Source: Streptomyces sp. NBC_00490
GTDB lineage: Bacteria; Actinomycetota; Actinomycetes; Streptomycetales; Streptomycetaceae
Direction of reading: 5' to 3'
Length of the DNA: 64,000 bases
Assembly (NCBI RefSeq): GCF_036013645.1
Contig: NZ_CP107869.1
Coordinates: forward strand, 6,014,001-6,078,000
In this document: positions 17,965 through 37,994 of the stretch, piece after piece
How the letters are laid out: each line of letters opens with the position of its first letter
How positions within the stretch are numbered: the first letter of the stretch is position 1
Program-made: the position numbers and the translations under genes
The notes under the pieces: model-generated
The model's database searches: none
Told to the model about the DNA's origin: nothing
Seen by the model: only the letters and a program-made list of their open reading frames with translations

Positions 17965-18119
17965 CGAAGGGGGGTCTGGGTGCCGAGCGTGAGGCGCACG
18001 GTGCCCAGGCCCCCGCCCCGCGGCGGGTGCGTCGGTCGATGCGCCCCTTTCCGCTTCCCGCTCCGGCTTGCACGCTGGAGGCGGGATGCGTTGTCCGCTC
18101 AACGGATCGGGGGTGGGGC

Positions 18120-18626
18120 ATGACCGTGCCGAATCAGGAAGAGCCGGTGCAGGAGCTGCTTGGGCAGCTTGTCCAGCAGCTCGGCCGCATGGCCGACGGG
18201 TACGACCGGATCGCGAGGGAGCTGCATCGGGCGAACCTGATCCAACTACAGGGCTTCTTCCTGGGACGCCTCGACCGGGCGACCGACGATCCGGTGCTCG
18301 CCGACGCGCTGAACACCTTCACGGATCTGTCCGGTGACAAGCGCCGCCAGATGTTCACCGCCAACGCGCAGTACGCGCTCATCCTGCTGTCACACCGGAT
18401 CGGCGCCATCGACCGCACCGAACTCCTCGGGTATCTGAAGGTGCTGCGCCGCAGTCCCGTCTTCACCGAGTACTGGGAGCGGTCGGCCCACGGGCGAGCA
18501 GGGCTGCCGCCGGAGTCCTTCGAGGCTCGGGTGGGCAGGGCTGTCGACGCCATCATGGAGGAACGGTTGGACGACCTCGAAGAGTGGTGGGTCGTCGGCC
18601 CGGACTCCGAGCCCCCGTCCCCTTGA
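18120..18626 (+). CDS. DUF6082 family protein, copy 2
   Basis: A 168-residue paralogue of the protein at 17100. It has the same landmarks in the same order: RANLIQLQGFFLGRLDRATD, SGDKRRQMFTANAQYALILL, SHRIGAIDRTELLGYLKVL, SPVFTEYWERS and DLEEWWVVGPDSE. The N-terminus differs, being an acidic coiled-looking stretch (EEPVQELLGQLVQQLGRMAD) instead of an Arg-rich one. There is no TTA codon here, so unlike copy 1 it should not need bldA. The ATG at 18120 follows GGGGGTGGGGC. Only 13 bp separate it from the next small gene. Confidence 0.7.
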   Translation: MTVPNQEEPVQELLGQLVQQLGRMADGYDRIARELHRANLIQLQGFFLGRLDRATDDPVLADALNTFTDLSGDKRRQMFTANAQYALILLSHRIGAIDRTELLGYLKVLRRSPVFTEYWERSAHGRAGLPPESFEARVGRAVDAIMEERLDDLEEWWVVGPDSEPPSP

Positions 18627-20031: not shown

Positions 20032-21952
20032 CGATGGCCTCCTTGAGAGCCGTGGCGAGCTGCTCGGCCTTGAACGGCATGCCGTTCACCTGGTTGTACG
20101 AGTGGGCGTCGACCAGGTACTTCGCCCGGATCAGCGTGGCGAGCTGCCCGAGGTTCATCTCGGGGATCACCACCTTGTCGTAACGCTTCACCACCGTGCC
20201 GAGGTTCCGCGGGAAGGGGTTGAGGTGGCGTAGGTGCGCCTGCGCGATGGACTCCCCGGCCGCTCGTAGCCGTCGTACGGCTGCGGTGATGGGGCCGTAG
20301 GTGGAGCCCCAGCCCAGGACGAGGGTGCGTGCCTCGTGCGGGTCGTCGACCTCGACATCGGGGACGTCGATGCCGTCGATCTTGGCCTGGCGGGTGCGGA
20401 CCATGAAGTCGTGGTTGGCGGGGTCGTAGGAGATGTTGCCGGTGCCGTCCTGCTTCTCGATGCCGCCGATGCGGTGTTCCAGGCCGGGTGTGCCGGGGAT
20501 CGCCCAGGGGCGGGCCAGGGTCTGCGGGTCGCGTTTGTAGGGCCAGAAGACCTCGGTGCCGTCGTCCAGGGTGTGGTTCGGCCCCTGGGTGAACTGCACG
20601 GTCAGGTCGGGGAGTTCGTCGACGTCCGGGATCCGCCAGGGCTCGCTGCCGTTGGCCAGGTAGCCGTCCGACAGCAGCATCACCGGCGTGCGGTACGTCA
20701 GTGCGATGCGGGCCGCCTCCAGGGCGGCGTCGAAGCAGTCCGCTGGCGTCTTCGGCGCGATGACCGGGACGGGGGCTTCGCCGTTGCGGCCGAACATGGC
20801 CTGGAGCAGGTCTGCTTGTTCGGTCTTGGTGGGCAGGCCGGTGGAGGGCCCGCCGCGCTGGATGTCGATCACCAGCAGCGGCAGCTCCAGCGACACCGCC
20901 AGACCGATCGTCTCCGACTTCAGGGCGACACCCGGGCCGGAGGTGGTGGTCACGGCCAGGCTGCCGCCGAAGGCTGCGCCCAGGGCGGCGCCGATGCCGG
21001 CGATCTCGTCCTCGGCCTGGAAGGTGCGGACACCGAAGTTCTTGTGGCGGCTCAGCTCGTGCAGGATGTCGGAGGCGGGGGTGATCGGGTAGGAGCCCAG
21101 GAACAGGGGCAGGTCCGCCTGGCGGGATGCGGTGATCAGTCCGTAGGACAGGGCCAGGTTGCCGGAGATGTTGCGGTAGGTGCCGGTGGGGAACGCGGTG
21201 GCGGCGGGGGCGACTTCGTAGGAGACGGCGAAGTCCTCGGTGGTCTCGCCGAAGTTCCAGCCGGCGGTGAAGGCGGCCAGGTTCGCCTTCATGATCTCGG
21301 GTTTCTTGGCGAACTTGGTCTTCAGGAAGCGTTCGGTGCCGGCGGTGGGCCGGTGGTACATCCAGGACAGCAGGCCGAGCGCGAACATGTTCTTGCTGCG
21401 TTCGGCTTCTTTGCGGCTGAGGTCGAATTCCTTGAGGGCTTCGACGGTCAGCGTGGTCAGGGGGACGGGGTGGAGGCTGTAGCCGTCCAGGGAGCCGTCT
21501 TCCAGCGGTGAGGTGGCGTAGCCGACCTTCTGCAGGGCTCGTTTGGTGAACTCGTCGGTGTTGACGATGATCTCGGCGCCGCGTGGCAGGTCGGCGATGT
21601 TGGCTTTGAGGGCGGCCGGGTTCATCGCGACCAGGACGTTCGGTGCGTCGCCGGGGGTCAGGATGTCGTGGTCGGCGAAGTGCAGCTGGAAGCTGGAGAC
21701 ACCGGGCAGGGTTCCGGCGGGTGCCCGGATCTCGGCGGGAAAGTTCGGCAGGGTGGACAGATCGTTGCCGAAGGTCGCTGTCTCGGAGGTGAAACGGTCA
21801 CCCGTGAGCTGCATACCGTCACCCGAATCGCCCGCGAAGCGGATGATCACCCGGTCCAGCCGGCGGACGTCCTTGGTCCCTGCCGGTTTGCGCTGCTCTC
21901 CCACGACGGCTTCGTCGGCCTGCTCCGCTGGGCTACTGACCTGGCTGGTCAC
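20024..21952 (-). CDS. korA: 2-oxoacid:ferredoxin oxidoreductase subunit alpha (gamma-alpha fusion)
   Basis: A 642-residue fusion. The N-terminal ~200 residues are the gamma domain (IRFAGDSGDGMQLTGDRFTS, NFPAEIRAPAG, VNTDEFTKRALQKVGY). The rest is the alpha pyrimidine-binding domain (SYPITPASDILHELS, FQAEDEIAGIGAALGA, TTSGPGVALKSE, QRGGPSTGLPTKTEQADLL) and its transketolase-C part. Together with KorB it forms the ferredoxin-reducing 2-oxoglutarate oxidoreductase of aerobic actinobacteria. The start is a GTG with AGGAGG 7-8 nt upstream. There is no ferredoxin gene beside it, so the electron acceptor is encoded elsewhere. Confidence 0.93.
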   Translation of the reverse strand: MTSQVSSPAEQADEAVVGEQRKPAGTKDVRRLDRVIIRFAGDSGDGMQLTGDRFTSETATFGNDLSTLPNFPAEIRAPAGTLPGVSSFQLHFADHDILTPGDAPNVLVAMNPAALKANIADLPRGAEIIVNTDEFTKRALQKVGYATSPLEDGSLDGYSLHPVPLTTLTVEALKEFDLSRKEAERSKNMFALGLLSWMYHRPTAGTERFLKTKFAKKPEIMKANLAAFTAGWNFGETTEDFAVSYEVAPAATAFPTGTYRNISGNLALSYGLITASRQADLPLFLGSYPITPASDILHELSRHKNFGVRTFQAEDEIAGIGAALGAAFGGSLAVTTTSGPGVALKSETIGLAVSLELPLLVIDIQRGGPSTGLPTKTEQADLLQAMFGRNGEAPVPVIAPKTPADCFDAALEAARIALTYRTPVMLLSDGYLANGSEPWRIPDVDELPDLTVQFTQGPNHTLDDGTEVFWPYKRDPQTLARPWAIPGTPGLEHRIGGIEKQDGTGNISYDPANHDFMVRTRQAKIDGIDVPDVEVDDPHEARTLVLGWGSTYGPITAAVRRLRAAGESIAQAHLRHLNPFPRNLGTVVKRYDKVVIPEMNLGQLATLIRAKYLVDAHSYNQVNGMPFKAEQLATALKEAIDG

Positions 21953-22207: not shown

Positions 22208-22879
22208 TCAGGAGTTCAGATAGGTGAGGACCGCAAGAACCCGACGGTGATCCCCGTCACTCGGGGAGAGGCCCAGCTTCAGAAAGATGTTGCTGACGTG
22301 CTTCTCGACGGCGCCGTCGCTCACCACGAGCTGGCGTGCGATCGCCGAGTTCGTCCGGCCCTCGGCCATCAGCCCCAGCACCTCCCGCTCCCGCGGGGTG
22401 AGTCCCGCGAGCACGTCCTGCTTGCGGCTGCGGCCCAGCAGCTGCGCGACGACCTCGGGGTCCAGCGCCGTACCACCCCCGGCGACCCGTACCACCGCAT
22501 CCACGAACTCACGAACCTCGGCTACCCGGTCCTTGAGGAGATAGCCGACGCCGGTACTGGAACCGGCGAGCAGTTCCGTCGCGTACCGCTCCTCCACGTA
22601 CTGCGACAGCACCAGGACCCCGAGTCCGGGATGAGCCTTCCGCAGCTGTACGGCGGCCCGCACCCCTTCGTCGGTGTGCGTCGGCGGCATCCGCACATCG
22701 GCGACGACGACGTCGGGCAGCTCCCCCTGTGCGTCCAGCTCGGTAATGGTCTTGACCAGTGCTTCACCGTCGCCGACGCCGGCGACGACGTCGTGCCCAC
22801 GGTCGGTCAACAGCCGGGTCAGCCCTTCCCTGAGCAGAACCGAATCCTCGGCGATGACCACCCGCACCCTGTCCTCCAC
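22208..22879 (-). CDS. LuxR-type (NarL family) response regulator
   Basis: A 223-residue two-component regulator. The receiver domain has the acidic pocket in VVIAEDS, the phospho-acceptor Asp in VVVADVRMPP, and the switch Lys in GYLLKDRV. The C-terminal helix-turn-helix (LTPREREVLGLMAEGRTNSA, VVSDGAVEKHVSNIFLKLGL) is of the NarL/FixJ type. The GTG at 22879 follows GGGGGACGAGG; an upstream extension is unconserved. Two histidine kinase genes lie directly upstream in the same direction, but a strong terminator at 23147-23188 separates them from this gene, so it probably has its own promoter. Confidence 0.9.
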   Translation of the reverse strand: MEDRVRVVIAEDSVLLREGLTRLLTDRGHDVVAGVGDGEALVKTITELDAQGELPDVVVADVRMPPTHTDEGVRAAVQLRKAHPGLGVLVLSQYVEERYATELLAGSSTGVGYLLKDRVAEVREFVDAVVRVAGGGTALDPEVVAQLLGRSRKQDVLAGLTPREREVLGLMAEGRTNSAIARQLVVSDGAVEKHVSNIFLKLGLSPSDGDHRRVLAVLTYLNS

Positions 22880-23198
22880 GATCCCTCGTCCCCCCACAGC
22901 CCGCCTCCGTGCCCGACTCCCCGACGGACGAAGTCCAGCATTCCAGCATTCGCACCCTGGTGCGCCGGGGCGGCGGGAATCCATGGGAATACGTGCACGG
23001 CACGGCGGGTTTCGGCCTCCGGTCAGGCCTGTTGTCGATCATCCGGTGCCGATCATCCGGTGCCGATGTCGACGGGGTCCGTGTCTTTCAGTCCGTCTGG
23101 GGCTGCCCTCTCTGGGGGAGTGGCGGCAGCTCCTGGGGACGGGAACGGGTGAGGGCGGCGGGGGCGAAAACCCCCACCGCCCTCACCCGGGCGCCCGC
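22880..23198. other. Intergenic region upstream of the response regulator
   Basis: A 319-bp gap without a gene. The right end holds the terminator of the kinase genes. Near 23036-23064 a 14-bp unit (CGATCATCCGGTGC) occurs twice in tandem. The left 100 bp should contain the response regulator promoter, for which I see no convincing hexamers. Confidence 0.5.
23147..23188 (-). terminator. Terminator of the histidine kinase gene
   Basis: GGGTGAGGGCGG (23147-23158) pairs with CCGCCCTCACCC (23177-23188), and inside it GGGGG pairs with CCCCC around CGAAAA. It lies 10 bp past the stop of the kinase gene on the minus strand. Confidence 0.8.
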
Positions 23199-24545
23199 TC
23201 AGCCCAACGCCCGCTCCCCCCGCCAAGGCAGCTCAGCCGTGACCCGGGTAGGCCCGCCCACCGGCGAATCCACCACCAGGATCCCGTCCACCGCACCCAG
23301 CCGCTCCGCCAGCCCACCGAGCCCGGAACCGGCGGCCGTGTCGGCGCCCCCCACCCCGTTGTCCACGACCTGGAGCATCAACCGGTTCTCCACCCGCCAC
23401 ACATCCACGGCCGCCCACGTCGCCCGCGAATGCTTGCTGATGTTCTGCAGCAGCTCCGAGACCGTGAAGTACGCGATCCCCTCGATCGCCGGCGCCGGCC
23501 GCGCCGGAAGATCCACCTCCACCTGCACCGGCACCGTGCACCGGGAAGCCACCGAGGACAACGCCGCGTCCAGCCCGCGATCCGTCAGTACCGCCGGATG
23601 AATCCCGCGCGCCAGATCCCGCAGCTCCTGCAGGGCCGTCTTCACCTCACCGTGCGCCTCGTCCACCATCCGCGCCGCGGCCTGCGGATCCTCCGTGAGC
23701 TTCTCCTTCGCCAGCCCCAGATCCATCGCCAGCGCGACCAGCCGCGCCTGCGCCCCGTCGTGCAGATCGCGCTCGATCCGCCGCAGATCCGCCGCCGCCG
23801 TATCCACCACGACCCCCCGGTCGGACTCCAGCTCCACCACCCGCGTGGCCAGCCGGGACGGCCCGAGCAGCCCGTGCACCATCACCCGGTCCACCATCGT
23901 CAGCGCCCGCACGATCCACGGCGTGGCCAGCGTGAACAACAGCCCCACCAGCGCGGTCACCGCGATCTCGAACGGGTTGTCGAGATAGATGTGGTGGGTC
24001 TGGTCGCCGTACAGCTGAAGCCCGTCCTGGCCGCCGTACACCGGAAAGAGCCAGAACCACAGCGGATACGTCAGCAACGCCCACCCGTACGCCCAGAAGT
24101 TCACGGCGACGACGAACGAGAACACCGCCCACGGCAGATGGATCACCGAGTACAGCAGCGTCCGCCAGGACGTGCCGCTCTTCAGCACGGCCCCCATCCA
24201 CGCTAGAAACCCGTTCCCCCGCATCCTGAGCGGCTCCGGATCGGCGACATCGAGCTCCAGCAGCCCCCGCGCCCGGACCCGCTCCAGCGCCCCGAACCCC
24301 CGGCACCCGGCCAGCCCCGCCGCCAGGACCGGAATCCCGAGGAACGTCACCAGCAGCCCGGCGCCGATGGCGACCATCGTGACGGCGTACGTGAACAGCA
24401 CGATGCTGATCGGCAGGCCCAGCAGCACATATCCGAACTCCCGCCAGGTCCGCCCCTCGAACGGCGCCCGCAGCCCCGTCGGCAGCCGGCGCCGCCGCGT
24501 CTGCTCGTCGAGGAACCCGTAGCTCTGTCCGTAGTCCGTGGCCAT
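23199..24545 (-). CDS. Sensor histidine kinase, paralogue 1
   Basis: A 448-residue membrane kinase of the NarL-partner (HPK7) class. The N-terminal half has four or more hydrophobic helices of the 'putative sensor' domain (VLLGLPISIVLFTYAVTMVA, GLLVTFLGIPVLAAGLAG, LIYSVIHLPWAVFSFV-like, VTALVGLLFTLATPWIV). The dimerisation/phosphoacceptor segment is RRIERDLHDGAQARLVALAM with the His of DLHDG. The ATPase domain has ELLQNISKHSRA (N box), VVDNGVGG (G1) and GSGLGGLAERL (G2). The ATG at 24545 follows GAGAAGG. It is about half identical to the next kinase gene; both likely signal to the response regulator at 22208. Confidence 0.88.
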   Translation of the reverse strand: MATDYGQSYGFLDEQTRRRRLPTGLRAPFEGRTWREFGYVLLGLPISIVLFTYAVTMVAIGAGLLVTFLGIPVLAAGLAGCRGFGALERVRARGLLELDVADPEPLRMRGNGFLAWMGAVLKSGTSWRTLLYSVIHLPWAVFSFVVAVNFWAYGWALLTYPLWFWLFPVYGGQDGLQLYGDQTHHIYLDNPFEIAVTALVGLLFTLATPWIVRALTMVDRVMVHGLLGPSRLATRVVELESDRGVVVDTAAADLRRIERDLHDGAQARLVALAMDLGLAKEKLTEDPQAAARMVDEAHGEVKTALQELRDLARGIHPAVLTDRGLDAALSSVASRCTVPVQVEVDLPARPAPAIEGIAYFTVSELLQNISKHSRATWAAVDVWRVENRLMLQVVDNGVGGADTAAGSGLGGLAERLGAVDGILVVDSPVGGPTRVTAELPWRGERALG

Positions 24546-24672
24546 CGGCGTCGTCCTTCTCTCGTCCCCCGCCCGGGGTGTCTGGAGTGGTCTCGCTGTC
24601 CTACCTCCACCCTGCTTGGCCGCAGGTCGGCGGACCATGGAGTCCGTCGGCGTCTTGGAAGGGGGGTTTTCC

Positions 24673-25878
24673 CTACCTACGGCCCGTGTCGAACGACCGG
24701 TCCCGCCACGGCAGCTCCGCCGTCACCGTCGTAGGACCGCCCGGCGGGGAGTCGATGACGAACAGGCCGTCGACGGCGTCGAGACGTTCCGCGAGGCCCT
24801 GCATGCCGGTGCCGCCGTCGAGGCGGGCGCCGCCGCGGCCGTCGTCCCACACCTGGATGAGCAGCCGGTCCTTCGTGCGCCACACGTCCACGGACGCGGT
24901 CCGCGCCCCGCTGTGCTTGCTGACGTTCTGCAGCAGCTCGGACACCGTGAAGTAGGCGATGCCCTCGATGGCCGCGGCCGGTCTGGCGTTCAGATCGGCC
25001 GTCACCTTCACCGGCACCGTGCAGCGCGAGGCCACGGAGGACAGGGCGGCATCGAGCCCGCGGTCGGTGAGTACGGCGGGATGGATGCCCCGCGCCAGAT
25101 CCCGCAGCTCCTGCAGCGCGAGCTTCACCTCACCGTGCGCCTCCGAGACCATCGCCGCCGCGTACTCGGGGTCCTCCAGCAGCTTCTCCTTCGCCAGACC
25201 GAGCCCCATCGCCAGATTGACCAGCCGGGCCTGCGCCCCGTCGTGCAGATCGCGCTCGATGCGCCGCAGATCGGACGCGGCCGCATCCACCACGACCCCC
25301 CGGCCCGACTCCAGTTCGGCGATCCGCCGCTCCAACTCGTCGGAGGGCGACAGCAGTCCGCGCACCATCGCCCGGTCGGCGTTGGTGAGGCCACGCGCGA
25401 TGAACGGCAGCACCGGCCACAGCACGAACAGCGAGGTCAGCGTGATGGTGAAGGTGAGGATGCCCCAGGGCAGCCGGATGAAGTCGTACAGGATCGTGCG
25501 CCAGCCCACCGGGTCCTTCAGCATCATCCACAGCCGCTGGAAGAACCCCGAGTCGCTGCTCCTCAACGGCAGCGGACTCGGCTCGTCGATCCGCACCCCG
25601 AGCAGCTTCCGGGCCCGGGCCCGTTCCATCGCGCCCAGCTTCCGCGCGCCCATCAGCCCCAACGCGAGCACAGGGAACCCGATCACGGTCACCGTCAGCA
25701 TGAAGCCGGTGAACAGCACTGTCGTCACATAGACGAACCCGATCAACGCCACCGGAAAGTTGACGAGGAGATGCGTGATCTCCTTCCAGGTGTGCGCGTC
25801 GTAGGCGAACCGGACCGGCGGAAGAGGCGCGGTGGCCTCGGCTTTCCGTTCGGGTGAGTATCTGGGGCGTTCGGTCAT
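24673..25878 (-). CDS. Sensor histidine kinase, paralogue 2
   Basis: A 401-residue membrane kinase with the same architecture as its neighbour but a shorter sensor part. Hydrophobic helices occur at residues about 35-75 (VNFPVALIGFVYVTTVLFTG, MLTVTVIGFPVLALGLMG) and 130-160 (IRLPWGILTFTITLTSLFVL). The phosphoacceptor segment is RRIERDLHDGAQARLVNLAM, followed by ELLQNVSKHSGA, VWDDGRGGA and GTGMQGLAERL of the ATPase domain. The stretch from LARGIHPAVLTDRGLDAALS into the ATPase domain is nearly identical in the two kinases, which marks a tandem duplication. It is divergent from the nuo operon, with about 200 bp between. Confidence 0.88.
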   Translation of the reverse strand: MTERPRYSPERKAEATAPLPPVRFAYDAHTWKEITHLLVNFPVALIGFVYVTTVLFTGFMLTVTVIGFPVLALGLMGARKLGAMERARARKLLGVRIDEPSPLPLRSSDSGFFQRLWMMLKDPVGWRTILYDFIRLPWGILTFTITLTSLFVLWPVLPFIARGLTNADRAMVRGLLSPSDELERRIAELESGRGVVVDAAASDLRRIERDLHDGAQARLVNLAMGLGLAKEKLLEDPEYAAAMVSEAHGEVKLALQELRDLARGIHPAVLTDRGLDAALSSVASRCTVPVKVTADLNARPAAAIEGIAYFTVSELLQNVSKHSGARTASVDVWRTKDRLLIQVWDDGRGGARLDGGTGMQGLAERLDAVDGLFVIDSPPGGPTTVTAELPWRDRSFDTGRR

Positions 25879-26081: not shown

Positions 26082-26489
26082 GTGCCGGCACAGACCGTCG
26101 GGTCGACCGTCGTCGTTGCGGCGGACTACTTCCAGTCGTACTCGGTCGTCGGACTGCTCGCCGTCGTCGGCGTGCTGTTCGTCGCCGTGGCCTTCGGCGC
26201 GGCCCGCCTGCTGCGCCCCGTCGTCCCGACCCCCGAGAAGCTCCTGACGTACGAGTGCGGCGTCGACCCCGTCGGCGAGGGCTGGGCACACACCCAGGTC
26301 CGCTACTACGTCTACGCCTTCCTCTACGTCATCTTCGCCGTCGACTCGATCTTCCTGTTCCCGTGGGCCACGGTCTTCGCCGCCCCCGGCTATGGCGCGG
26401 CCACACTCGTAGAGATGTTCATCTTCCTCGGCTTCCTGGCCGTGGGTCTGCTGTACGCATACAAGAAGGGCGTCCTGACATGGACGTGA
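26082..26489 (+). CDS. nuoA: NADH-quinone oxidoreductase subunit A (second cluster)
   Basis: A 135-residue membrane subunit of a complex I-type enzyme. It has three helices ([60 protein letters not shown]) and the conserved loop [18 protein letters not shown], whose Cys in the TYECG loop lies near the quinone entrance. The start was set at GTG 26082 behind GGAGCGAGGGG; a GTG at 26037 would add 15 residues. It overlaps nuoB by 10 bp and opens a tightly coupled ten-gene operon that lacks nuoDEFG. Confidence 0.88.
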
Positions 26490-27238
26490 CCCCCTCGGAA
26501 CCGGTGCTGCTCCCCGAGCCGAAACGGCTGGGCGCCCTGGCCCGCCTCGCTCCCGAGCCGATGAAGGTGGTCCTCAACTGGGGCCGCCGCTACTCGCTCT
26601 GGGTCTTCAACTTCGGCCTCGCCTGCTGCGCGATCGAGTTCATCGCCGCGTCGATGGCCCGCCACGACTTCATCCGCCTCGGCGTGATCCCCTTCGCACC
26701 GGGCCCCCGCCAGGCCGACCTCATGGTCGTCTCCGGCACGGTCACCGACAAGATGGCCCCCGCCGTCAAGCGCCTCTACGAGCAGATGCCCGAGCCCAAG
26801 TACGTCATCTCCTTCGGCGCCTGCTCCAACTGCGGCGGTCCCTACTGGGACTCGTACTCCGTGACGAAGGGCGTCGACCAGATCATCCCGGTCGACGTCT
26901 ACGTCCCCGGCTGCCCACCCCGCCCCGAAGCCCTCCTCCAGGGCATCCTCAAACTCCAGGAGAAGATCGCCCGAGAGTCGCTGGGCGAGCGGTACGGGGT
27001 GACCGGCGGGCGGGCGTCGACGGCCGCGCTGCAGAGCGGGTTGGTACGGGGTCCGGGGGCGGTTTCGGAAGAGGCTTCGGGCTCGGCGGCCGGGTCGCCT
27101 CCGAGCGGGGGTTCGGAGTCGGCTCCAGGCCCTGCATCCGGTACGGCTTCTGACTCCGCCTCGGGCCCGACGTCCGGCCCCGCCTCGGGCCCGGCTACCG
27201 GTTCGTCCGACGGCCCGGCGTCCCGGGAGGAACGATGA
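26480..27238 (+). CDS. nuoB: NADH-quinone oxidoreductase subunit B (second cluster), with Ser/Gly-rich tail
   Basis: A 252-residue subunit that holds the terminal N2 [4Fe-4S] cluster. All four ligands are present: the CC pair in GLACCAIEF, the Cys of [10 protein letters not shown] and the Cys of VPGCPPRPE. The core of about 165 residues is complete. It is followed by some 85 residues of low complexity ([20 protein letters not shown] and similar), absent from ordinary NuoB. It overlaps nuoC by 4 bp (ATGA). In normal complex I NuoB contacts NuoD, which this operon does not encode. Confidence 0.92.
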
Positions 27239-29073
27239 CCGCGGTCGGCTGGCTGCCTGCCCCCGCCGAGGAACTCTTCGGCGCGGAGGCCACGGCCGAG
27301 GAGTCGTACGAGGTCCTGACGGTGGACGTGCCGCCGGCGTCCTGGATCACGGCGCTGGAGACGGCACGCGACGAACTGGGCTGCACCTACTTCGACTGGC
27401 TGAGCGCGGTCGATGAACCGGGCACGGGCTTCCGCGTCGCCGTACACCTCGCGGCCCTCTCACCGGTACGCCGACTGCTGCTGCGCACCACCGTCCCGCA
27501 CGAGTCCCCGACCCTGCCCAGCGCCGTGGACGTGTTCGCGGGCGCGGCCTGGCACGAACGCGAGACGCACGAAATGTTCGGTGTCGTCTTCGAGGGCCAC
27601 CCCGCCCTGGACCACCTCCTCCTCCCCGAGAACTTCGAGGGCCACCCCCTGCGCAAGGACTTCGTCCTGGCAGCCCGGGTCGCCAAGGCCTGGCCCGGCG
27701 CCAAGGAACCGGGCGAGTCCGACCACGGCGGCCCCAAACGCCGCCAGATGCTCCCCCCAGGCGTCCCCGACCCGAACGAATGGGGCCCCCTCAAAGGCCA
27801 GCTCCCCCCAGCCCCGACCCGCCCCGCCCGAGCCGCCGGAGCCCGAGCGACAGCAACCGGGGCAGCGGGAGAACGCCCGGCCCGAGCTGCCGGCGAACGC
27901 CCGGTACGTCGCGCTCGCACCGCGGCTGCGGGTTCGGCGAGTCAGGCGGAGGAGGCCGCGACTCCGGCTGCCGCGCCGCGCCGTGCCCGCACCGCGGCGG
28001 AGGGCTCAGCCAGCCAGACGGAGACGCCCTCGTCCCCGGGCACGCCGACGACTGGGCCACGTGGCGCCGGTACGCCGGCCGAGGACTCGGCGGATCGGGC
28101 CGGGGCAACGGCGGCTGAAGGCTCGGCAAGGCAGTCGGAGACGCCCGCCCCTTCGGGTACGGCGGCCGGCCCGCGTCGCGCCCGTACTGCCGCGGAGGGA
28201 CCCGCCGACCGAACCGCCGCGGCCCCCGAGCCTCCGACCCCGGGCACCGACGACGCTCCGTCGGGCACCGGCACGCCGACCGGACCGCGTCGTGCGCGAA
28301 GCGCGGGCGAGGGCTCGGCATCCCAGCGCCCCGGACCGGACACCACCCCCTCCGGCCCACGCCGATCCCGCAGCGCCTCGGACGGCTCCGCGACCCAACG
28401 GACCACACCCGACGCCCCGTCGTCGCCCGCCCCGACCGAGGACACCCCGAGCGCCGAGGCCACACCCCCGAAGCCCGCCACGGCCCCCCGCAGCCCCGAC
28501 GCCCCGTGGCACCACGCCCGCCCGGCCTTCGACGAGCCGGCAACCGACCAAAAGCCCGAGGCCAAACCCCTCCCGGAGCCCGACACCCGACCCGAGCCCG
28601 GAACCCAGCCCCAGCGGGAGACCGAACCGCGCACGGGGCCCGAACCGTCCACTGGGCCCGAACCCTCCACTGGGCCGGAACCGCGCACGGAGCCGCAGCC
28701 TCGACCAGAGGCCGAACCGCGCCCACAGGTCGGGCTGCACCAGGAGTCCGAGCCAGTGACCCAGCAGCGGCCGACGCCCGAGTCGGAGCCGGAGCCGGAG
28801 GCCGAGGCGGATTCTGAGCCGGGGCCGGAGCCCTCTGAACCGGGGCCGGTGGCCAAGCCGCACCCGGAGTCGAAGGCTGAGCCGGAGACCCCGCCCACCG
28901 TGGCCTCCACCCCCGCGCCTGCCCCGACCCCGATCCCCGAGGCGGACTCCACCCCCACCCCCGAAGAACCCCCGGGAACCTCCGTAGAGCCCGAAGTCCC
29001 TGAAGCGCCCGAAGACCCCGCAACTCGCGAAAACCCCGCAACTCCCGAGAACCCCGCAGGAGGCCCGCAGTGA
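27235..29073 (+). CDS. nuoC: NADH-quinone oxidoreductase subunit C (second cluster) with very long disordered tail
   Basis: A 612-residue protein. Only the first ~200 residues are Nuo[21 protein letters not shown], then [34 protein letters not shown], the 30-kDa subunit signature. The remaining ~410 residues are low complexity: first repeated [17 protein letters not shown] units, then Pro/Glu/Thr-rich repeats ([20 protein letters not shown]), then a Pro/Glu tail ending [13 protein letters not shown]. Some complex I operons fuse nuoC to nuoD; here the position of NuoD is taken by unstructured sequence instead. The frame is maintained for 1.2 kb of repeats and ends in a 4-bp overlap (GTGA) with nuoH, so the tail is translated. 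Confidence 0.88.
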
Positions 29074-30038
29074 ACGACGCTCTCGACGTCGCCCTGCGAC
29101 TCCTGATCGTCTTCGTCGTCTTCCTCACCTTCCCCCTGATCGTCGGCCAGACCGAACACAAGGTCATGGCTCACATGCAGGGTCGCCTCGGCCCCATGTA
29201 CGCCGGCGGCTTCCACGGCTGGGCCCAACTCGTCGCGGACGGCGTCAAGTTCGTGCAGAAGGAAGACGTCGTACCCGCGGGCGCGGACCGCCGTGTCTTC
29301 CAACTCGCCCCCGCGGTCGCCCTCCTGCCCTACCTCCTGATCCTCCTCGCCATCCCCATCGGCCCCGGCGAGGGCGCGGTCGGCGAGGTCGTCGACGCCG
29401 GCGTCTTCTTCGTCCTGGCCGTCATGGGCGTAGGTGTCCTCGGCTCACTCATGGCCGGCTGGGCCAGCGCCAACAAGTTCTCCCTCCTCGGCGGTCTCCG
29501 CACCGCCGCCCAACTCCTCGCCTACGAACTCCCGATGCTCCTGACCGCCGCCTCCGTCGCCATGGCGGCCGGCACGGTCTCCCTCCCCGGCATCCTCGAC
29601 GCCTTCGAGTGGTGGTGGCTGCCCTGGCAGATCGTCGGCGCGATCGTCTTCTTCGTCGCCGGCCTCGCCGAACTCCAGCGCCCGCCCTTCGACATGCCGG
29701 TCGCCGACTCGGAGATCATCTTCGGTGCCTACACCGAGTACACCGGCCTCCGCTTCGCTCTGTTCCTCCTCGCCGAGTACGCCGGGATCGTCGTCCTCTG
29801 CGGCCTGACCACCGTCCTCTTCCTGGGCGGCTGGCACGGCCCGTGGGGCGCCGACGGCCTGGGCTGGGTCTGGACCCTGCTGAAGGCCGCGATCCTCGCC
29901 TTCCTCGTCATCTGGCTGCGTGTGACCTATCCCCGCCTGCGCGAGGACCAGCTCCAGAAGCTCGCCTGGACCCTCCTCGTCCCCCTTTCCCTCGCTCAGA
30001 TCGCCCTCACCGGCATCGTCAAGGTGGTGATCTCCTGA
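29070..30038 (+). CDS. nuoH: NADH-quinone oxidoreductase subunit H (second cluster)
   Basis: A 322-residue membrane subunit with about eight helices that forms the quinone tunnel and links the arms of complex I. Conserved features are [20 protein letters not shown] (normally E-R-K-R-x-GP), [18 protein letters not shown], and [19 protein letters not shown] followed by [18 protein letters not shown], the acidic loop that contacts the quinone head. The GTG start overlaps the nuoC stop, and its own TGA overlaps the ATG of nuoI by one base. The quinone-side residues are intact, so quinone reduction remains possible. Confidence 0.93.
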
Positions 30039-30667
30039 TGGCCGAGTCGCTTCCGCCCACCCGGTCCCGGTTTCCCGGCGCCGGTCTCGCCAAGGGCCTG
30101 GCCGTCACCCTCCGGACGATGACGAAGAAGACCGTCACCGAGCAGTACCCCGACGTCCAGCCCGACCTCCCGCCCCGCACCCGCGGTGTCATCGGCCTGT
30201 TCGAGGAGAACTGCACGGTCTGCATGCTCTGCGCCCGGGAGTGCCCGGACTGGTGCATCTACATCGACTCCCACAAGGAGACGGTCCCGGCTGCCGCCCC
30301 CGGCGGCCGGGAGCGCAGCCGCAACGTCCTCGACCGCTTCGCCATCGACTTCTCCCTGTGCATGTACTGCGGTATCTGCATCGAGGTCTGTCCTTTCGAC
30401 GCCCTGTTCTGGTCACCGGAGTTCGAGTACGCCGAGACCGACATCCGCGAACTCACCCATGAACGCGACAAGCTCCGTGAGTGGATGTGGACCGTCCCGG
30501 CCCCGCCGGCCCTCGACCCCGCGGCCGAGGAGCCGAAGGAGATCGCGGCCGCCCGCAAGACCGCCGAGAAACTGGCAGCGGCCCAGGCCGAACCGACCGA
30601 GCCCCGGTCCGGGCCGTCGACCGGACCGTCGACCGGGCCGACCGCACCCGAGGGGGGTGCGTCATGA
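30038..30667 (+). CDS. nuoI: NADH-quinone oxidoreductase subunit I (second cluster), ferredoxin type
   Basis: A 209-residue peripheral subunit carrying two [4Fe-4S] clusters. Both motifs are complete: [12 protein letters not shown] and [21 protein letters not shown] follows the usual GLFE lead, and the core ends near [17 protein letters not shown] further ~55 residues are Pro/Ala/Glu- and Ser/Gly/Thr-rich ([20 protein letters not shown]). With no NuoE, F or G encoded here, this subunit is the natural entry point for electrons, perhaps from ferredoxin. It overlaps nuoJ by 4 bp. Confidence 0.93.
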
Positions 30668-31461
30668 CCCTCGCCGCAGCCATCGCCACGGCCACCACGG
30701 CGCACGGCACGCCGGGCAAGGCTCACGCCGGTGTCATCGCCGCCGCCGAAACCCACGGGTTCCTCTCGCCGACCGGCGTCGAGATCGCCTTCCTCCTCGT
30801 CGGCCTGGTCACCTTCGGGGCCGCCCTCGTCACCGTCACCACCCGGCAGCTGGTGCACGCCGCCCTGTGGCTGGTGGTGACCCTCGGCGGTCTCGCCGTC
30901 GAATACCTCCTGCTCACCGCGGAGTTCATCGCCTGGGTGCAGGTCCTCATCTATGTGGGTTCCGTCGTCGTACTCCTCCTCTTCGGTCTGATGCTCACCA
31001 AGGCGCCCATCGGCCGCTCCCCGGACGCCGACTCCGGCAACCGCTGGGCGGCCCTCACGGTCGCCGTCGCCTCGGCCGCCGCCCTGGTGTGGGTCGTCGT
31101 CGATGCGTTCCGCGCGACCTGGATCGACCTGGACGGCCCCGCCGCCGGCTCCACCGAGGCCACCGGAGCGAGCCTCTTCCAGAACTGGGTCCTCCCCTTC
31201 GAGGCCCTCTCCGTCCTCCTCCTCGCCGCACTGGTCGGCGCGATCGTCCTGTCCCGCAAGGCGAAGGCGGAGTCGAGCTCTCCCCCTGTGAACTCCCGGC
31301 CCGCGACCGGTAGTTCCCCATCCGCACCGAATTCCCGTAATCACCCGATCGGGCGAAACAGGCCGGTCGAGCGAACCGAACCGCCCGAGCCCAGCGCCCA
31401 CGCCGAGCGCACCACTCCGGCCGAGCCCGGCACCCCGGCCGAGCAGGAAGGCGCCCGCTGA
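30664..31461 (+). CDS. nuoJ: NADH-quinone oxidoreductase subunit J (second cluster)
   Basis: A 265-residue membrane subunit. It has five helices, among them [60 protein letters not shown] and [35 protein letters not shown] is the conserved pi-bulge helix of NuoJ that gates the proton path. After the last helix come about 60 residues of Pro/Ser/Glu-rich tail. An extra 30-residue N-terminus precedes the first helix. Its stop overlaps the nuoK ATG by one base. Confidence 0.9.
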
Positions 31462-31844
31462 TGCACCTCGCCTATCCCGCCGTACTCTCCGCCCTCCTGT
31501 TCTGCACCGGCCTGTACGGCGTCCTCGCGCGCCGCAACGCGATCCTGGTCCTGATGTCGGTCGAGCTGATGCTCAACGCCGTCAACCTCAACCTGGTCGC
31601 CTTCGACGTCTGGCTCAGCAGGACCGCCGAGGAGACCCTCCACTCCGGCCAGGCCCTGACCCTGTTCACCATCGCCATCGCCGCCGCCGAGATCGGCATC
31701 GGCCTGGCGATCGTCCTCGCCGTGTACCGCAACCGCGGCACCTCGGACATCGACAGACTCCGCGACACCGCCGAGGGCCACGAGCCCGACCACGCCGACG
31801 ACTCCGACGCCCCCGCGGCCGAGAAGGCTGAGGCCACCGCGTGA
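31461..31844 (+). CDS. nuoK: NADH-quinone oxidoreductase subunit K (second cluster)
   Basis: A 127-residue MrpC-like membrane subunit with three helices. Both buried glutamates of the proton path are present: [17 protein letters not shown] and [17 protein letters not shown]. The usual protein ends soon after the third helix; here about 35 further acidic residues follow ([20 protein letters not shown]). It overlaps nuoL by 4 bp (GTGA). Confidence 0.92.
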
Positions 31845-33835
31845 CCACCACCACCCTCGCCGTCCTCGTCCCCCTCCTTCCCTTCCTGGGCGCGGCCGCC
31901 GGCCTGCTCCTGGGCCGCACGGCACCCGGCTTCGTCCGTCCGCTCGCCGTCCTGCCGGCGCTCGCCTCCCTCGTGCTGGCCGCCGTGGTCGCCGTACGCC
32001 AGGGCGGCGACGAGGCCGTGAACGCCGCCACCGAGCTCACGCCCACCGGCTCGATCCCCATCGAACTCGCCCTGCACATCGACGGCTTCGCCGCCCTGGT
32101 CGCCGTACTCGTCGGCCTCGTCGCCACCTGCGTGCAGATCTACTCGACGGGCTACCTGCGCGACGACCCGCGCTACCCCTCCTACGCCGCCCTCGTCTCC
32201 CTCTTCACCGCCGCGATGCTCCTCGTCGTCTACTCGGGCGAGCTGATGGTGCTGCTGGTGGGCTGGGAGATCATGGGCATCTGCTCGTACTTCCTGGTCG
32301 GTCACTACTGGGAGACCCCGGAGGCCCGCGCCGCCTCCATCAAGGCCTTCCTGGTCACCAAGCTGGGCGATGTCCCGTTCCTGATCGGCCTGTTCGCGCT
32401 CGCCACCGACGCCGGCTCCTTCCGCATCACGAAGGTCCTCGGCGCCGTCGCGCACGGCGGGCTCGACAACCCGACCCTGATCGCCCTGCTGCTCCTGGCG
32501 GGCGTGGCCGGAAAGTCGGCGCAGTTCCCGCTGCACACCTGGCTCCCGGACGCGATGGCGGGCCCGACGCCCGTCTCCGCGCTCATCCACGCCGCGACCA
32601 TGGTCGCCGCCGGTGTCTACTTCATCGCCCGTCTCCTCCCGGTCTTCGAGGCCTCGCGGGCCGCGATGACGGTCCTCGCCGTGATGGCCGCCGTCACGAT
32701 GGTCGGCTCGGCGCTCGCCGCACTCGCCCAGGACGACATCAAGCGCGTCCTCGCCTACTCGACGATCGGCCAGCTCGGCTACATGACCGGCGCCCTCGCC
32801 GTCGGCGACCGCGGTGCCGCCGTCTTCCACCTCCTGTCGCACGGCGCCTTCAAGGCGCTGCTGTTCCTCGCGGCCGGCGTGATCATCCACGCCGCCGGCA
32901 CCAACTCGCTGGCCGCCATGTCCCGCATGGGCCACCTCCGCGACCGCGTGCCGGACGCCTTCTGGACGATGACCGTGGCCCTCCTCGCGCTCGCCGCGAT
33001 CCCGCCCTTCAGCGGCTTCTTCTCCAAGGAGTCCGTCCTCGGAGCCGCCGAGCACGTCGTCACCGGCCACACCGAGTACGTCCCCGGCGCCGCGGGCTGG
33101 CTCGTCCTCGTCGCCGGTCTGCTCACGGCCCTGCTCACCGCGGCGTACGCGACGCGTCTGTGGCTGCTGGCCTTCCACGGCCGGGGTGCGGAGGCCCCCG
33201 ACCACGGCCGCCAGCCGCTCACCATGACCACGGTCCTGTGGGTTCTCGCGATCCCGTCCCTCGCCGTCGGCGCGTTCGCCTACCGCGTGCTCCCGGACTG
33301 GTTCGACGGCAACGACCTCGCCCCGACCCTCACCACGTCCGTCGTCGGCACCGGCATCGCCCTGGTCGGCGGCATCGTGACCTACGCCGCCTGGCGGCAC
33401 ACCACCGTGCTCGCCGACCGCGTCCCGCTGGGTGCGGTCGCCGCCCACCCGGACGGTGACGCCGGACTCGTCGAGGCCGAGGCCATCGCCAGCCACGAGC
33501 CCGCGTACGGAGACGTGGCCTACGCACCCGACCCCTCGGACCCGGGCCGCCTCCTGCTCGGCCCGCTGCACCGGCACGCGGCGGTCGGCTTCCACCTCGA
33601 CGCCGTGTACTCGGCCCTCTTCGTCCGCCCGGTGCAGGCCGGCGCCACCCTCGTCCGGTTCCTCGACCGCGAGGTCGTCGAGACCTACGTACGAGGCGCG
33701 GGCGCTCTACCCCGACTGCTGGGCACGGCCGTACGGCGTGCCCAGACCGGAAATGTGCAGACCTATGTGAGCGCGCTGCTCGCCGGCACCGTCGTCCTGG
33801 TGGTCGCCGCCGTCCTCGTCGCCACGGGAGCGTGA
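31841..33835 (+). CDS. nuoL: NADH-quinone oxidoreductase subunit L (second cluster)
   Basis: A 664-residue antiporter-like proton-pumping subunit with about 16 helices. Key residues are in place: the Glu of [20 protein letters not shown], the Lys of [34 protein letters not shown] with the broken helix 7, and [18 protein letters not shown] with the helix 8 Lys. The C-terminal part (from about residue 530) corresponds to the long lateral helix and last helix that clamp NuoM and NuoN. The GTG start lies within the nuoK stop. Six bp separate it from nuoM. Confidence 0.93.
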
Positions 33836-33841
33836 GCAGGC

Positions 33842-35416
33842 GTGATCGATATCAACGAGTCCGTGATGCAGTTCCTTCTGGCGTTCCTCGTCGTCGGCCC
33901 GCTCCTCGGCGCGGTCGCCGCTCTCCTGCCGGCCCCGCCGGGACTGAAGGGGAAGTCGCCCGAGCAGGCGGTACTGCGGCACGGCGTGACCGCGACCGGC
34001 GTGGTTCTCATCGCAGCGATCGTCCTCGCGCTCGGCTTCGACCACGACCACCCGTCGAAGATGCAGGCCACGACCGACATCAGCTGGATCCCCGCACTCG
34101 ACGTGCGCATCCACCTCGGCATCGACGGCATCTCCCTCCCCCTTCTGGTCCTGACCGCGCTGCTGACCTTCCTCTGCGCGCTCTACTCGTACTTCAAGAT
34201 GCCCGCGGGCCCGACCCCGAAGGCATTCGTCGCGCTGCTGCTCGTCCTCGAGTCCGGCACGCTCGCGACCTTCGCCGTCCTCGATCTGCTGCTGTTCTTC
34301 CTCGCGTTCGAGATGGTGCTCATCCCGATGTACTTCCTCATCGCCCGCTGGGGCGGAGCGGGCCGGACCCAGGCCGCCTGGCGGTTCATCCTCTACACGC
34401 TGCTCGGTTCGGTCGTCATGCTGCTCGGCCTGCTCCTGATCGGGATCAAGGCGGGCACATTCGACATGGTGGCACTCGCCACTGACAACGGCCGGTCCCT
34501 CACCTCATCCGTGCAGGTCATCGCGGTTCTGGCGATCGGGATCGGGCTCGCGGTGAAGACCCCGATGTGGCCGCTGCACAGCTGGCTGCCGGACGCCCAC
34601 ACCGCCGCGCCGACCGTCGGCTCGGTCCTGCTGGCAGGCGTCATGCTGAAGATGGGTACATACGGGTTCGTCCGGATTCTCCTCCCCATCGCGCCGGACG
34701 GTTTCCGTGACTTCGCGCCCTACCTCGCGGCCTTCGCCGTCGTCGGCATCATCTACGGATCCCTGGCCTGCCTCGCCCTCGCCAAGCAGGGCGCGAAGGG
34801 TGACCTCAAGCGCCTCATCGCCTACTCGTCCGTCGGCCACATGGGCTTCGTCCTGCTCGGCATCGCCACGATGACCCCGACCGGCGTGAACGGCGCCCTG
34901 TTCGCCAACATCGCCCACGGCCTCATCACCGGCCTCCTGTTCTTCCTGGTCGGCGCGCTGAAGGACCGTACGGGCAGCACCGACCTCGACGCCCTCGCCG
35001 AGCAGACCGGCGCCGCGCTGTACGGGAAGGCCCCGCGCCTCGGCGGCCTGCTCGCGTTCGCCGCGGTCGCCTCCCTCGGACTGCCGGGCCTCGCCGGGTT
35101 CTGGGGCGAGATGCTGGCGCTGTTCGGCGCGTTCGATCCCGCAGAGGGCCTCAGCCGCCCGGCGTTCCTCACGTTCATGGCGATCGCGGCCTTCGGCACC
35201 CTCCTCACGGCCGCGTACCTCCTCGTCGTGGTCCGCCGCGTCTGCATGGGCGCCGTACCGCAGGACGCCCCGAAACTCGCCGACGTCCACACGTACGAGT
35301 TCGCGGCCTGGACGCCGCTCGTCGCCCTCACCGTCGTGGCAGGCCTGTGGCCGAAGGCCCTCCTCGGTCTGACCGACCCGGCCGTACAGCAGCTGCTCGC
35401 AGGAGGCACCCGATGA
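33842..35416 (+). CDS. nuoM: NADH-quinone oxidoreductase subunit M (second cluster)
   Basis: A 524-residue antiporter-like subunit. [20 protein letters not shown] has the essential Glu, [20 protein letters not shown] is the helix 7 signature with its Lys just before, and [20 protein letters not shown] holds the helix 8 residues. [15 protein letters not shown] is the helix 12 region with the proton-exit Glu. The GTG at 33842 has GAGCAGG close upstream. It overlaps nuoN by 4 bp. Confidence 0.93.
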
Positions 35417-36945
35417 GCTCCCTGGCCTCCATGGCCCAGCCGATGGCCGCCAACCTCGTCCAGTCCGTCGACTGGCTCGCCATCGCACCGCCCACCATCG
35501 CGGCGGTCGTCGGCCTCGTCGCCCTCGTCGCGGACCTCTTCATCGGCGACCACAAGAAGGCGCTGCTCGGCTGGCTGTCCGTCGCGGGTCTCGCCGCCTC
35601 CACGGCGATGCTGCTGCCCCTCCTGGACGGCGACCGCGCCACCTTCTGCCTGACCGGCGCTCCCGACGTCTGCAGTTACACCGCGGACCGCTTCACCCTC
35701 GTCCTGCAGCTCCTGGTGCTCGGGGGAGCGTTGCTGACAGCGCTCCTGTCCGTCACCGCCCTCAAGGACGCCGACAAGGGACTCCCCGAAGGGGAGTACT
35801 GGTTCCTGCTGCTCTCCTCCGCCGCCGGCGCCGCCCTCCTGCCCGCCTCGCGCGACCTGGCGACCCTGATCGTCGCCTTGGAGGTCGCCTCCCTGCCGGC
35901 CTTCGCCCTCGTCGGCCTGCGCCACGGCGACCGCAAGTCCTCCGAAGCGGCCCTGAAGTTCTTCCTGTCCTCGGTCACCGCGACCGCGGTCAGCCTCATG
36001 GGCATCAGCTTCGTGTACGCCTCCACCGGCACCCTCTACCTGACCCAGATCGCCGACCGCATCCAGAACGTCGACGGCCAGCTCCACACCCTTGCCCAGA
36101 CCGGCGTCGTCCTCACCCTCGTCGGCTTCGCCTTCAAGACGGCCGCCGTCCCCTTCCACTTCTGGGTCCCGGACACCTACGTAGGGGCGCCGCTCCCCAT
36201 CGCCGCCTACTTGTCGGTCGTCGGCAAGGCGGTCGGCTTCTCAGGCCTGATCCTCGTCACGGTCGTCGCCCTCCCGTCGTACGCCGACGTCTGGGGCCCG
36301 GCGCTCGCGGCCCTGGCCGCCCTCACCATGACCGTCGGCAACGTCGGCGCCCTCCGACAGCAGACCACGCGCGCGTACAGCGCCGTACGGCTGCTCGCCT
36401 GGTCCTCCGTCGGCCAGGCCGGCTACCTCCTCGTGCCGATCGCCGCCGCCGCGTACTCCGACGACGCCGAGCGCTCCGTCGGCTCCACCGTCGCCTACGC
36501 CCTCATGTACGCCGCCGTGAACCTCGGTGCCTTCGCGGTGGCCGCCCTGGTCGGCCGTACGAGAGCCCTCAACCGCCTCACCGACTACCGCGGCCTGTAC
36601 GCCTCGAACCCCCTGGCCGCCCTCCTCCTGGCCTTCTTCCTGCTCTGCCTCGCCGGACTGCCGCCGGGTATCATCGGCCTCTTCGCGAAGGTCACCGTCT
36701 TCTCGGCGGCCGTCGACGCGGGCCTCGGCTGGCTCGCCGTGGTCATGGCCGCCAACGTCGTGATCGCGCTGTTCTACTACCTCCAGTGGACGGCCCTGCT
36801 GTTCCGCGCCCCGGAAGGCGAACCCGCACGGCACCGGATCCCGGCCCCGCTCACCGCGGCCATCGCCCTCACCGGCGTCCTCGGAATCGCCCTGTCGGGC
36901 GCGCCCCAGCTGATCCTGCGCTTCACCGACACCGGCCTCTTCTGA
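35413..36945 (+). CDS. nuoN: NADH-quinone oxidoreductase subunit N (second cluster)
   Basis: A 510-residue antiporter-like subunit and the last gene of the operon. [20 protein letters not shown] carries the Glu, [19 protein letters not shown] and [20 protein letters not shown] the Lys and the WVPD motif, and [20 protein letters not shown] the later charged residue. [20 protein letters not shown] closes the channel core. The ATG at 35413 has AGGAGG 6 nt upstream. No clear terminator follows; htpX starts 185 bp downstream. Confidence 0.93.
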
Positions 36946-37130
36946 GCCCACGGCCGGACAACTCCCGAGCCCTCACCCGGATGGCTCACGTCCGCCTCCG
37001 TACGCACAAGGGAACTAGCTGCTCTCGCCTGGCGTTGACAAGAACAGGAGGGTCCACTGGTGGTGACACCAGAAGGACCGCAGATCAGCACGCAAAGGGT
37101 TCCCCTGCTGCACGATTTGGAGGGCGTACC

Positions 37131-37994
37131 GTGCACCGCCGGCACAACGGGCTCAGGACCGCAGTACTCCTCGGGGGACTGTCCGCACTCATCATCGTCA
37201 TCGGCAGTTTCTTCGGCCGTATGGGGCTCGTGGTCGCTGTCCTGATCGCCCTGGGGACCAACGCGTACGCGTACTGGAACAGCGACAAGCTGGCGCTACG
37301 CGCGATGCGCGCCCGCCCGGTCAGCGAGTTCGAGGCCCCCGCGCTCTACCGCATGGTCCGCGAACTCTCCACCCAGGCCCGCCAACCCATGCCGCGCCTG
37401 TACATCTCCCCGACGGAAGCCCCGAACGCGTTCGCGACGGGCCGCAACCCGCGCAATGCCGCCGTCTGTTGCACGGACGGCATCCTGCGCATCCTCGACG
37501 AGCGCGAACTGCGCGGTGTCATCGGCCACGAGCTCAGCCATGTCTACAACCGCGACATCCTGATCTCTTCCGTGGCCGGAGCCCTCGCCTCCGTGATCAT
37601 GTTCCTGGTCAACTTCGCCTGGCTGATCCCCATCGGCCGCTCCAGCGACGACGACGGCCCCGGCATCCTCGGCATGCTGCTCATCATGATCCTGGGCCCG
37701 CTCGCCGCGAGCGTCATCCAACTGGCCATCAGCCGCTCGCGGGAGTACGAGGCCGACGCGTCCGGCGCCCAGCTGACCGGCGACCCCCTGGCCCTGGCCA
37801 GCGCGCTGCGCAAGCTCGAGATGGGCACCAAGCAGCTTCCGTTGCCCCCGGAGCCGCGAATCGAGACCGCGAGCCACATGATGATCGCGAACCCCTTCCG
37901 TCCGGGCCAGGGATTCTCGAAGATGTTCTCCACGCACCCGCCGATGGCGGACCGCATTGCCCGCCTTGAGAAGATGGCAGGTCGCCACCAGTGA
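37131..37994 (+). CDS. htpX: M48 family membrane zinc metalloprotease HtpX
   Basis: A 287-residue membrane protease for quality control of membrane proteins. Two N-terminal helices ([39 protein letters not shown]) precede the catalytic part. The zinc site is HELSH (with Glu as base) near residue 138 and the third ligand in [15 protein letters not shown]. Two more helices lie between them. [19 protein letters not shown] and [17 protein letters not shown] are typical HtpX landmarks. The GTG at 37131 follows TTGGAGGG. It is translationally coupled to yccF through a GTGA overlap. Confidence 0.92.

Follow-up and report, generated by a model that had tools for sequence, protein, structure and literature searches.

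The 64,000-nt stretch of the Streptomyces sp. NBC_00490 genome analyzed here (the window; C1:6014001-6078000 of a 10.8-Mb assembly in two contigs) contains a cluster of complex I genes, designated nuo2, at window positions 26082-36945 on the plus strand. Pfam and NCBIfam profiles identified ten subunit genes in the order nuoA-B-C-H-I-J-K-L-M-N, with adjacent genes overlapping or at most 6 bases apart, in agreement with the order and coordinates given in a preliminary description made from the sequence alone. The first gene, nuoA2 (26082-26489; PF00507), encodes FAVD in place of the FDVE motif. It is followed by nuoB2 (26480-27238; PF01058 and NCBIfam NuoB), whose product has all four cysteines of cluster N2 and a low-complexity C-terminal tail, and by nuoC2 (27235-29073; PF00329). 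The remaining genes are nuoH2 (29070-30038; PF00146, with matches to solved relatives), nuoI2 (30038-30667; Pfam and NCBIfam, two 4Fe-4S motifs), nuoJ2 (30664-31461; PF00499), nuoK2 (31461-31844; PF00420), nuoL2 (31841-33835; PF00361 and PF00662), nuoM2 (33842-35416; TIGR01972 above the cut-off), and nuoN2 (35413-36945; NuoN models with a best E value of 3.7e-89, under the curated cut-off). The NuoC domain occupies residues 30-148 of NuoC2, and a low-complexity tail of approximately 460 residues accounts for the length of nuoC2 (612 codons). A NuoC-NuoD fusion, suspected from this length, was rejected, as the extra residues are of low complexity and show no NuoD match. The tail (window 27700-29073) is rich in Pro, Glu, Ala, and Thr; judging from the frames read, NuoC2 has approximately 170-230 residues in most other families, and long frames are also found in other Streptomyces.

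No match to the NuoD family (PF00346) was obtained within the window, and nuoE, nuoF, and nuoG are absent from the nuo2 cluster, as had been described before; the cluster thus does not encode a 14-subunit NADH-dependent complex I. A canonical nuo operon is also present in the genome, and its nuoD1 ends approximately 55 kb before nuoA2. No second complex-I-type nuoF was found in a genome-wide search that covered the NuoF family (PF01512) and not NuoE or NuoG. The three PF01512 matches were the canonical nuoF and one gene in each of two other loci, L008 and L009. According to their open reading frames, the L009 gene looks like one for an SLBB/ferredoxin protein, and the L008 gene appears to belong to a formate dehydrogenase. 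The L008 set (C1:8415150-8418665) includes NuoE-, NuoF-, and NuoG-like parts and resembles an NAD-linked formate dehydrogenase.

Two NuoD-family genes were found in the genome, both outside the window: the canonical nuoD1 and a lone nuoD2 (C1:5761011-5762162; 383 amino acids) located 278 kb upstream of nuoA2. With NuoD2, the set of eleven subunits (A, B, C, and H to N in the window, D elsewhere) is complete, although this distance means that the genes do not form a single contiguous operon, a feature that was not treated as essential. The preliminary description had called for a genome search for a standard operon and an orphan nuoD, both of which were found, and had held that an unlinked nuoD2EFG set clustering with the operon would make it an ordinary split complex I; only the nuoD2 part of such a set was obtained.

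In other classes of the phylum, nuoD lies between nuoC and nuoH of a nuo2-like operon in 16 of 20 loci. The other four comprise two with a lone nuoD2 and midA 4-8 kb off (L130 and L132), a short contig with nuoD alone (L143), and a locus with a different gene order (L145). On the other hand, none of 20 nuo2 loci of the class to which Streptomyces belongs contains nuoD (19 show both nuoC and nuoH; L073 begins at nuoH), and no nuo2 cluster surrounds nuoD2 in any of the 20 neighbourhoods fetched for other genera. An exception was seen in Fodinicola feengrottensis, in which the nuo2 locus ends with nuoD2, read in two pieces and on the opposite strand. The possibility that the nuoD2 locus encodes another complex was rejected: the 20 neighbourhoods lack nuo2. 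Two genes in one of them (L044) match NuoL2 and NuoM2 at 38% and 28%; this pair and its neighbours look, from their reading frames, like an Mrp antiporter.

In a NuoD tree of 54 rows, the 17 orphan NuoD2 sequences formed a single clade (100/100) that grouped with the in-operon NuoD of other classes and was distant from the 17 NuoD1 sequences; five rows were flagged as long, two of them orphan NuoD2 of genomes with a reduced nuo2 set (see below). By sequence comparison, NuoD2 is orthologous to the nuoD product encoded between nuoC and nuoH in other actinobacterial classes. A mirror-tree comparison was performed with 16 genomes, the seventeenth (G034) being excluded because its stretch lacks nuoB and nuoC. 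The distances of NuoB2, NuoC2, and NuoI2 correlated with those of NuoD2 at r = 0.86, 0.89, and 0.96, and with those of NuoD1 at 0.37, 0.56, and 0.35, respectively. The partial correlations with NuoD2 given NuoD1 were 0.84, 0.87, and 0.96, values that were reached in 0 of 2000 permutations each. The distance data thus indicate that NuoD2 co-evolves with NuoB2, NuoC2, and NuoI2 rather than NuoD1 doing so.

The distribution of these genes was examined in 197 genomes of the class (NuoI2, E <= 1e-30; KorA, E <= 1e-60; MidA, PF02636); counts of NuoD2 refer to the matches listed, among which weak relatives may be missed. NuoD2-type genes were present in at least 86 genomes, 58 of them at approximately 70% identity or more (two being fragments), whereas NuoH2 was found in 53, NuoI2 in 77, PF02636 in 79, and KorA in 154. 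All 16 genomes of the genus, including the present one, carry all five. Both NuoD2 and NuoI2 were found in 72 genomes and neither in 106, and 51 of the 53 NuoH2 genomes had NuoD2, the exceptions (G014 and G108) being incomplete (72% and 80%).

The gene adjoining nuoD2 on the other strand, midA, encodes a member of the MidA/NDUFAF7 family (PF02636, E 1e-15). NuoD2 and MidA occurred together in 74 genomes, NuoD2 alone in 12, MidA alone in 5, and neither in 106, among the NuoD2 matches listed. In the neighbourhoods from other genera, midA shared the stretch with nuoD2 in 19 of 20 cases and lay approximately 11 kb from it in the remaining one. In three of the 20 loci of other classes (L137, L138, and L139), midA comes after the nuoN gene of the 11-gene operon. 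A midA-like gene was also seen just 5' of nuoA in three Nitrospira-type records (L224, L228, and L229). The position equivalent to Arg85 of NDUFS2, which we located by counting back from what we take to be Tyr108 of the mitochondrial protein, was Arg in all 37 NuoD2-type rows versus Thr in all 17 NuoD1 rows. NDUFAF7 dimethylates NDUFS2 at Arg85 (PMC3829151), and the present system shares with that case both the family and the target arginine; it differs in that the activity is a prediction and the bacterial gene adjoins a relocated nuoD. MidA probably dimethylates Arg58 of NuoD2, the Arg85 equivalent, during assembly. On the basis of the orthology of NuoD2, its co-evolution with NuoB2, NuoC2, and NuoI2, and the conserved arginine, nuo2 and nuoD2 are read as encoding a probable 11-subunit complex I that lacks the NADH module and whose nuoD has been relocated.

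The iron-sulfur ligands of NuoB2 and NuoI2 are present in the sequence. Of 19 charged positions in NuoK, NuoL, NuoM, NuoN, and NuoH, all were invariant except NuoN K272 (15 of 16) and NuoH D66 (17 of 21); 16-21 sequences per position were compared, window included, as best matches of at least 35% identity, so that the canonical copy may have been compared in some loci, for instance L074. The earlier statement that metal ligands and proton-path residues are intact needs correction at NuoA, where FAVD (window 26250-26400) was found in 17 of 18 Actinomycete sequences, window included, versus FDVE in all 13 operons of other classes. Because nuo2 has no NADH module, electrons must enter elsewhere, most plausibly through NuoI2, one of two routes proposed previously; the other, borrowing of NuoD from the canonical complex, is needless because a dedicated nuoD2 exists.

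A candidate source of electrons is encoded upstream of nuo2 on the opposite strand. The genes korB (18952-20031), for the beta subunit of a 2-oxoacid:ferredoxin oxidoreductase and a candidate ferredoxin reductase, and korA (20024-21952; TIGR03710 above the cut-off, PF01855 and PF01558), for a fused gamma/alpha subunit, are both on the minus strand. Between them and nuo2 lies a two-component set, also on the minus strand, consisting of a LuxR-type response regulator gene (22208-22984) and genes for two sensor histidine kinases (23199-24638 and 24673-25878; PF13796 and PF07730 in both), the second of which is divergent from nuoA2. The regulator occupies the position of AbrC3 in S. coelicolor, in which the two-component genes AbrC1-3 are divergent from SCO4599-SCO4608 (PMC9739823). 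In the same species, SCO4594 and SCO4595 have been assigned to alpha-ketoglutarate ferredoxin oxidoreductase and alpha-ketoglutarate dehydrogenase, respectively (PMC8981147). The kor genes share the stretch with nuo2 in 10 of 20 full loci; for loci with the reduced set the figure is 12 of 18. Several of the others end at a contig edge, and the divergent korAB-nuo2 arrangement is conserved in several families. KorA was found in 73 of 77 NuoI2 genomes versus 81 of 120 others (Fisher p = 2e-6, in a test that ignores relatedness). Mycobacterial KorAB is an air-stable 2-oxoglutarate:ferredoxin oxidoreductase that completes an oxidative tricarboxylic acid (TCA) cycle (PMC2773412); the present enzyme shares its architecture of a fused alpha/gamma subunit and a beta subunit, and differs in that its genes are divergent from nuo2 and 2-oxoglutarate is a candidate substrate only. 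Ferredoxin reduced by KorAB would be the likeliest donor of the nuo2 complex. A second korA copy, 96% identical, is present outside the window on the smaller, 0.23-Mb contig (G000:C2:188718-190565).

Taken together, we consider it likely that nuo2 and NuoD2 form an 11-subunit complex I without an NADH module, matured by MidA, fed by KorAB through ferredoxin, and coupling menaquinone reduction to proton pumping. In this scheme, nuoD2 would have moved out of the operon within the Actinomycete lineage while its product is still made for the nuo2 complex. KorAB would reduce ferredoxin with 2-oxoglutarate, and electrons would enter through the pair of 4Fe-4S clusters of NuoI2 and continue to N2 of NuoB2. 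Menaquinone would then be reduced at a site formed by NuoB2, NuoD2, and NuoH2, while NuoL2, NuoM2, and NuoN2 would pump protons.

Several observations weigh against parts of this scheme. KorA was missing (E <= 1e-60) from four NuoI2 genomes, two of which (G127 and G128) are 98-100% complete; because of these four and the 81 NuoI2-less genomes with KorA, the link is not exclusive, and a strict pairing of KorAB with nuo2 was rejected. In some genomes without nuo2 (G059 and G124), KorA lies 12-15 kb from the canonical nuoH, so that the linkage may be partly an inherited neighbourhood. No ferredoxin-type motif was found in the window outside NuoI2. Among the NuoD2 matches listed, 14 genomes had NuoD2 without NuoI2 (E <= 1e-30) and 5 the reverse, and the partial correlation between NuoC2 and NuoD1 is still 0.47. 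Finally, the quinone-site position, the DY/DW position counted along Thermus Nqo4, whose Y87 we take to be the quinone-site tyrosine, was Tyr in all 17 NuoD1 sequences versus Trp in all 17 orphan NuoD2, in both lone NuoD2, and in 14 of 18 other rows of other classes. Because of this Trp and the altered NuoA motif, the quinone chemistry of the nuo2 complex may differ from the usual one.

The same 11-subunit enzyme could receive electrons from a donor other than KorAB-reduced ferredoxin, such as flavodoxin, another ferredoxin system, or a direct protein partner. The wider occurrence of KorA speaks for this, as does the description of the donor of complex I lacking the NADH module as an open question (PMC11238625). 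We regard it as rather unlikely in view of the conserved divergent arrangement of korAB and nuo2. One specific route, F420H2 entry via FpoF, was rejected: an FpoF-type subunit (PF04432) had no match in the present genome, whereas 3 of 14 control genomes had one. Complex I is reversible, and KorAB-type enzymes can be, so the complex might also run in reverse, with the proton-motive force and menaquinol driving ferredoxin reduction for biosynthesis or a carboxylating KorAB; the oxidative role of the mycobacterial enzyme (PMC2773412) makes this direction improbable. Slightly less probable still is the suggestion that the canonical complex I takes up nuo2 products as alternative subunits, with NuoL2 and NuoM2 swapped in or NuoD1 borrowed. 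Such hybrid assembly was raised in three reports on streptomycetes (PMC9239103, PMC3765725, and PMC8388888), but a full dedicated set including NuoD2 exists, NuoD2 tracks NuoB2, NuoC2, and NuoI2 and not NuoD1, and nuo1 and nuo2 subunits of the same genome are only approximately 30-54% identical. That nuo2 is a decaying relic can be dismissed, as the preliminary description had concluded: other genomes have lost the membrane genes, and an internally deleted nuoH remnant is seen at one locus (L080), but here all ten frames are open, the key residues are kept, and dN/dS was 0.02-0.35 in two full-locus pairs.

The loss of membrane genes was examined further in the 24 genomes having NuoI2 and lacking NuoH2. 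A single NuoH (E <= 1e-25) was found in 21 of them and none in three (78-85% complete). The NuoB2 loci of 18 NuoD2-positive, NuoH2-negative genomes (16 of the 24 plus G047 and G070) were inspected; L094 (hydrogenase-like) and L098 (canonical), fetched together with them, were set aside. In 14 of the 18, nuoB-C-I lie together, no membrane nuo2 gene was found at the locus, and nuoD2 is elsewhere. In L081, nuoI is approximately 4.5 kb from nuoC, and a contig edge cuts off L082 and L083. L080 contains nuoA-B-C, then a nuoH remnant with two in-frame internal deletions (10939-11283, between nuoC2 and nuoI2), and then nuoI; here the membrane arm is in the process of being lost. At least two NuoB-family genes, some hydrogenase-like, were present in all 19 NuoD2-positive, NuoH2-negative genomes tested, versus one each in two NuoD2-negative controls. 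In the reduced set, all 18 NuoB sequences keep the N2 cysteines and all 16 NuoI sequences seen have both 4Fe-4S motifs, and dN/dS values of 0.06-0.53 indicate purifying selection in all four reduced pairs tested. By gene content, the reduced loci encode the core of a complex I that has no dedicated membrane arm.

The reduced proteins have also changed. Mean distances among seven reduced genomes were greater than those among six full genomes (G030, G143, and G173 left out), 5.7-fold for NuoB2, 1.6-fold for NuoC2, 2.9-fold for NuoI2, and 2.6-fold for NuoD2, versus 1.08-fold for NuoD1. The NuoI2 match begins at query residue 31 or later in 20 of 24 reduced genomes (exceptions: G016, G030, G060, and G161), whereas it begins at residue 15 or earlier in full loci, the fragments G119 and G130 apart. 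The N-terminal segment of NuoI and most of a stretch of approximately 30 residues in NuoB are lost. Docking of the reduced B-C-D-I module on the canonical membrane arm was considered, since several reduced clusters lie shortly downstream of canonical nuoM/N genes; the lost segments, which presumably are the parts facing the membrane arm, argue against it. It is an evenly balanced question whether NuoB2-C2-D2-I2 is an independent enzyme, with KorAB and MidA serving a ferredoxin-linked iron-sulfur module that can do without the membrane arm. Such a module would drive the 11-subunit pump in Streptomyces and elsewhere act as a soluble Q-module reducing some acceptor. Maturation of such a core apart from the membrane arm would be in keeping with the location of nuoD2 and midA at a locus of their own. 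Full and reduced states are both present in three families (f14, f17, and f28). A contig scan aimed at reduced loci yielded mostly other operons, along with four loci of reduced appearance (L180, L189, L191, and L205). Among titled records, L180 comes from Actinosynnema pretiosum and L189 from a member of the Nanopelagicales, and their genomes have NuoD2 at 57% and 49%, respectively; NuoD2 was found in all eight searched genomes behind titled loci.

The membrane and Q-module subunits of nuo2 are homologous to those of Fpo (F420H2 dehydrogenase) and group 4 [NiFe] hydrogenases, and the distant matches of NuoD2 to solved structures include hydrogenase subunits. The large subunit of group 4 [NiFe] hydrogenases carries two CxxC nickel-ligand pairs, whereas NuoD2 has none, and the present genome differs from Fpo systems in having no FpoF family member. 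The system of Desulfitobacterium hafniense (PMC11238625) has the same eleven subunits, counting NuoD2, no NADH module, and ferredoxin as a candidate donor. Here, unlike there, nuoD is outside the operon beside midA, korAB is divergent from nuo2, Trp replaces the quinone-site Tyr, NuoA has FAVD, and reduced B-C-I relatives exist.

The S. coelicolor nuo2 cluster, SCO4599-SCO4608 (PMC9239103, PMC3765725, and PMC8388888), is the same by gene content and by its kor and two-component neighbours. In the available parts of these papers, its function is called unclear (PMC9239103), nuoC2 is omitted in all three, and nuoL is also given as absent in PMC9239103. A separate nuoD2 is already reported in PMC3765725 and PMC8388888, with possible subunit mixing as the only role suggested, and the parts available of the three contain no orthology, MidA, KorAB, or reduced-form evidence. 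Within a literature search that had most subscription journals outside its scope and sources available in part, nothing linked nuo2 to KorAB or MidA, placed NuoD2 in the 11-gene family, or described a reduced B-C-I form. The genomic evidence identifies the subunit that the cluster lacks, points to a methyltransferase that probably acts in assembly on one particular arginine, and offers a candidate system for electron donation. If the interpretation is true, the actinobacterial 2-oxoglutarate:ferredoxin oxidoreductase would gain a respiratory outlet, and the relatives with B, C, D, and I only would mean that a complex I core is selectable without its own membrane arm, which bears on the modular assembly of complex I and on what its quinone-site half does alone.

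Other genes in the window include htpX, for a membrane metalloprotease (37128-37994, start approximate, plus strand; NF002839 above the cut-off), which lies 3' of nuoN2 in the fetched stretch of 14 of 20 full loci and accompanies the cluster in 7 of 18 reduced-set loci, and two adjacent DUF6082 genes (window 16878-18626). Records titled Bifidobacterium breve (L198) and Melainabacteria (L191) hold actinobacterial nuo2-type loci and are probably mis-binned contigs.

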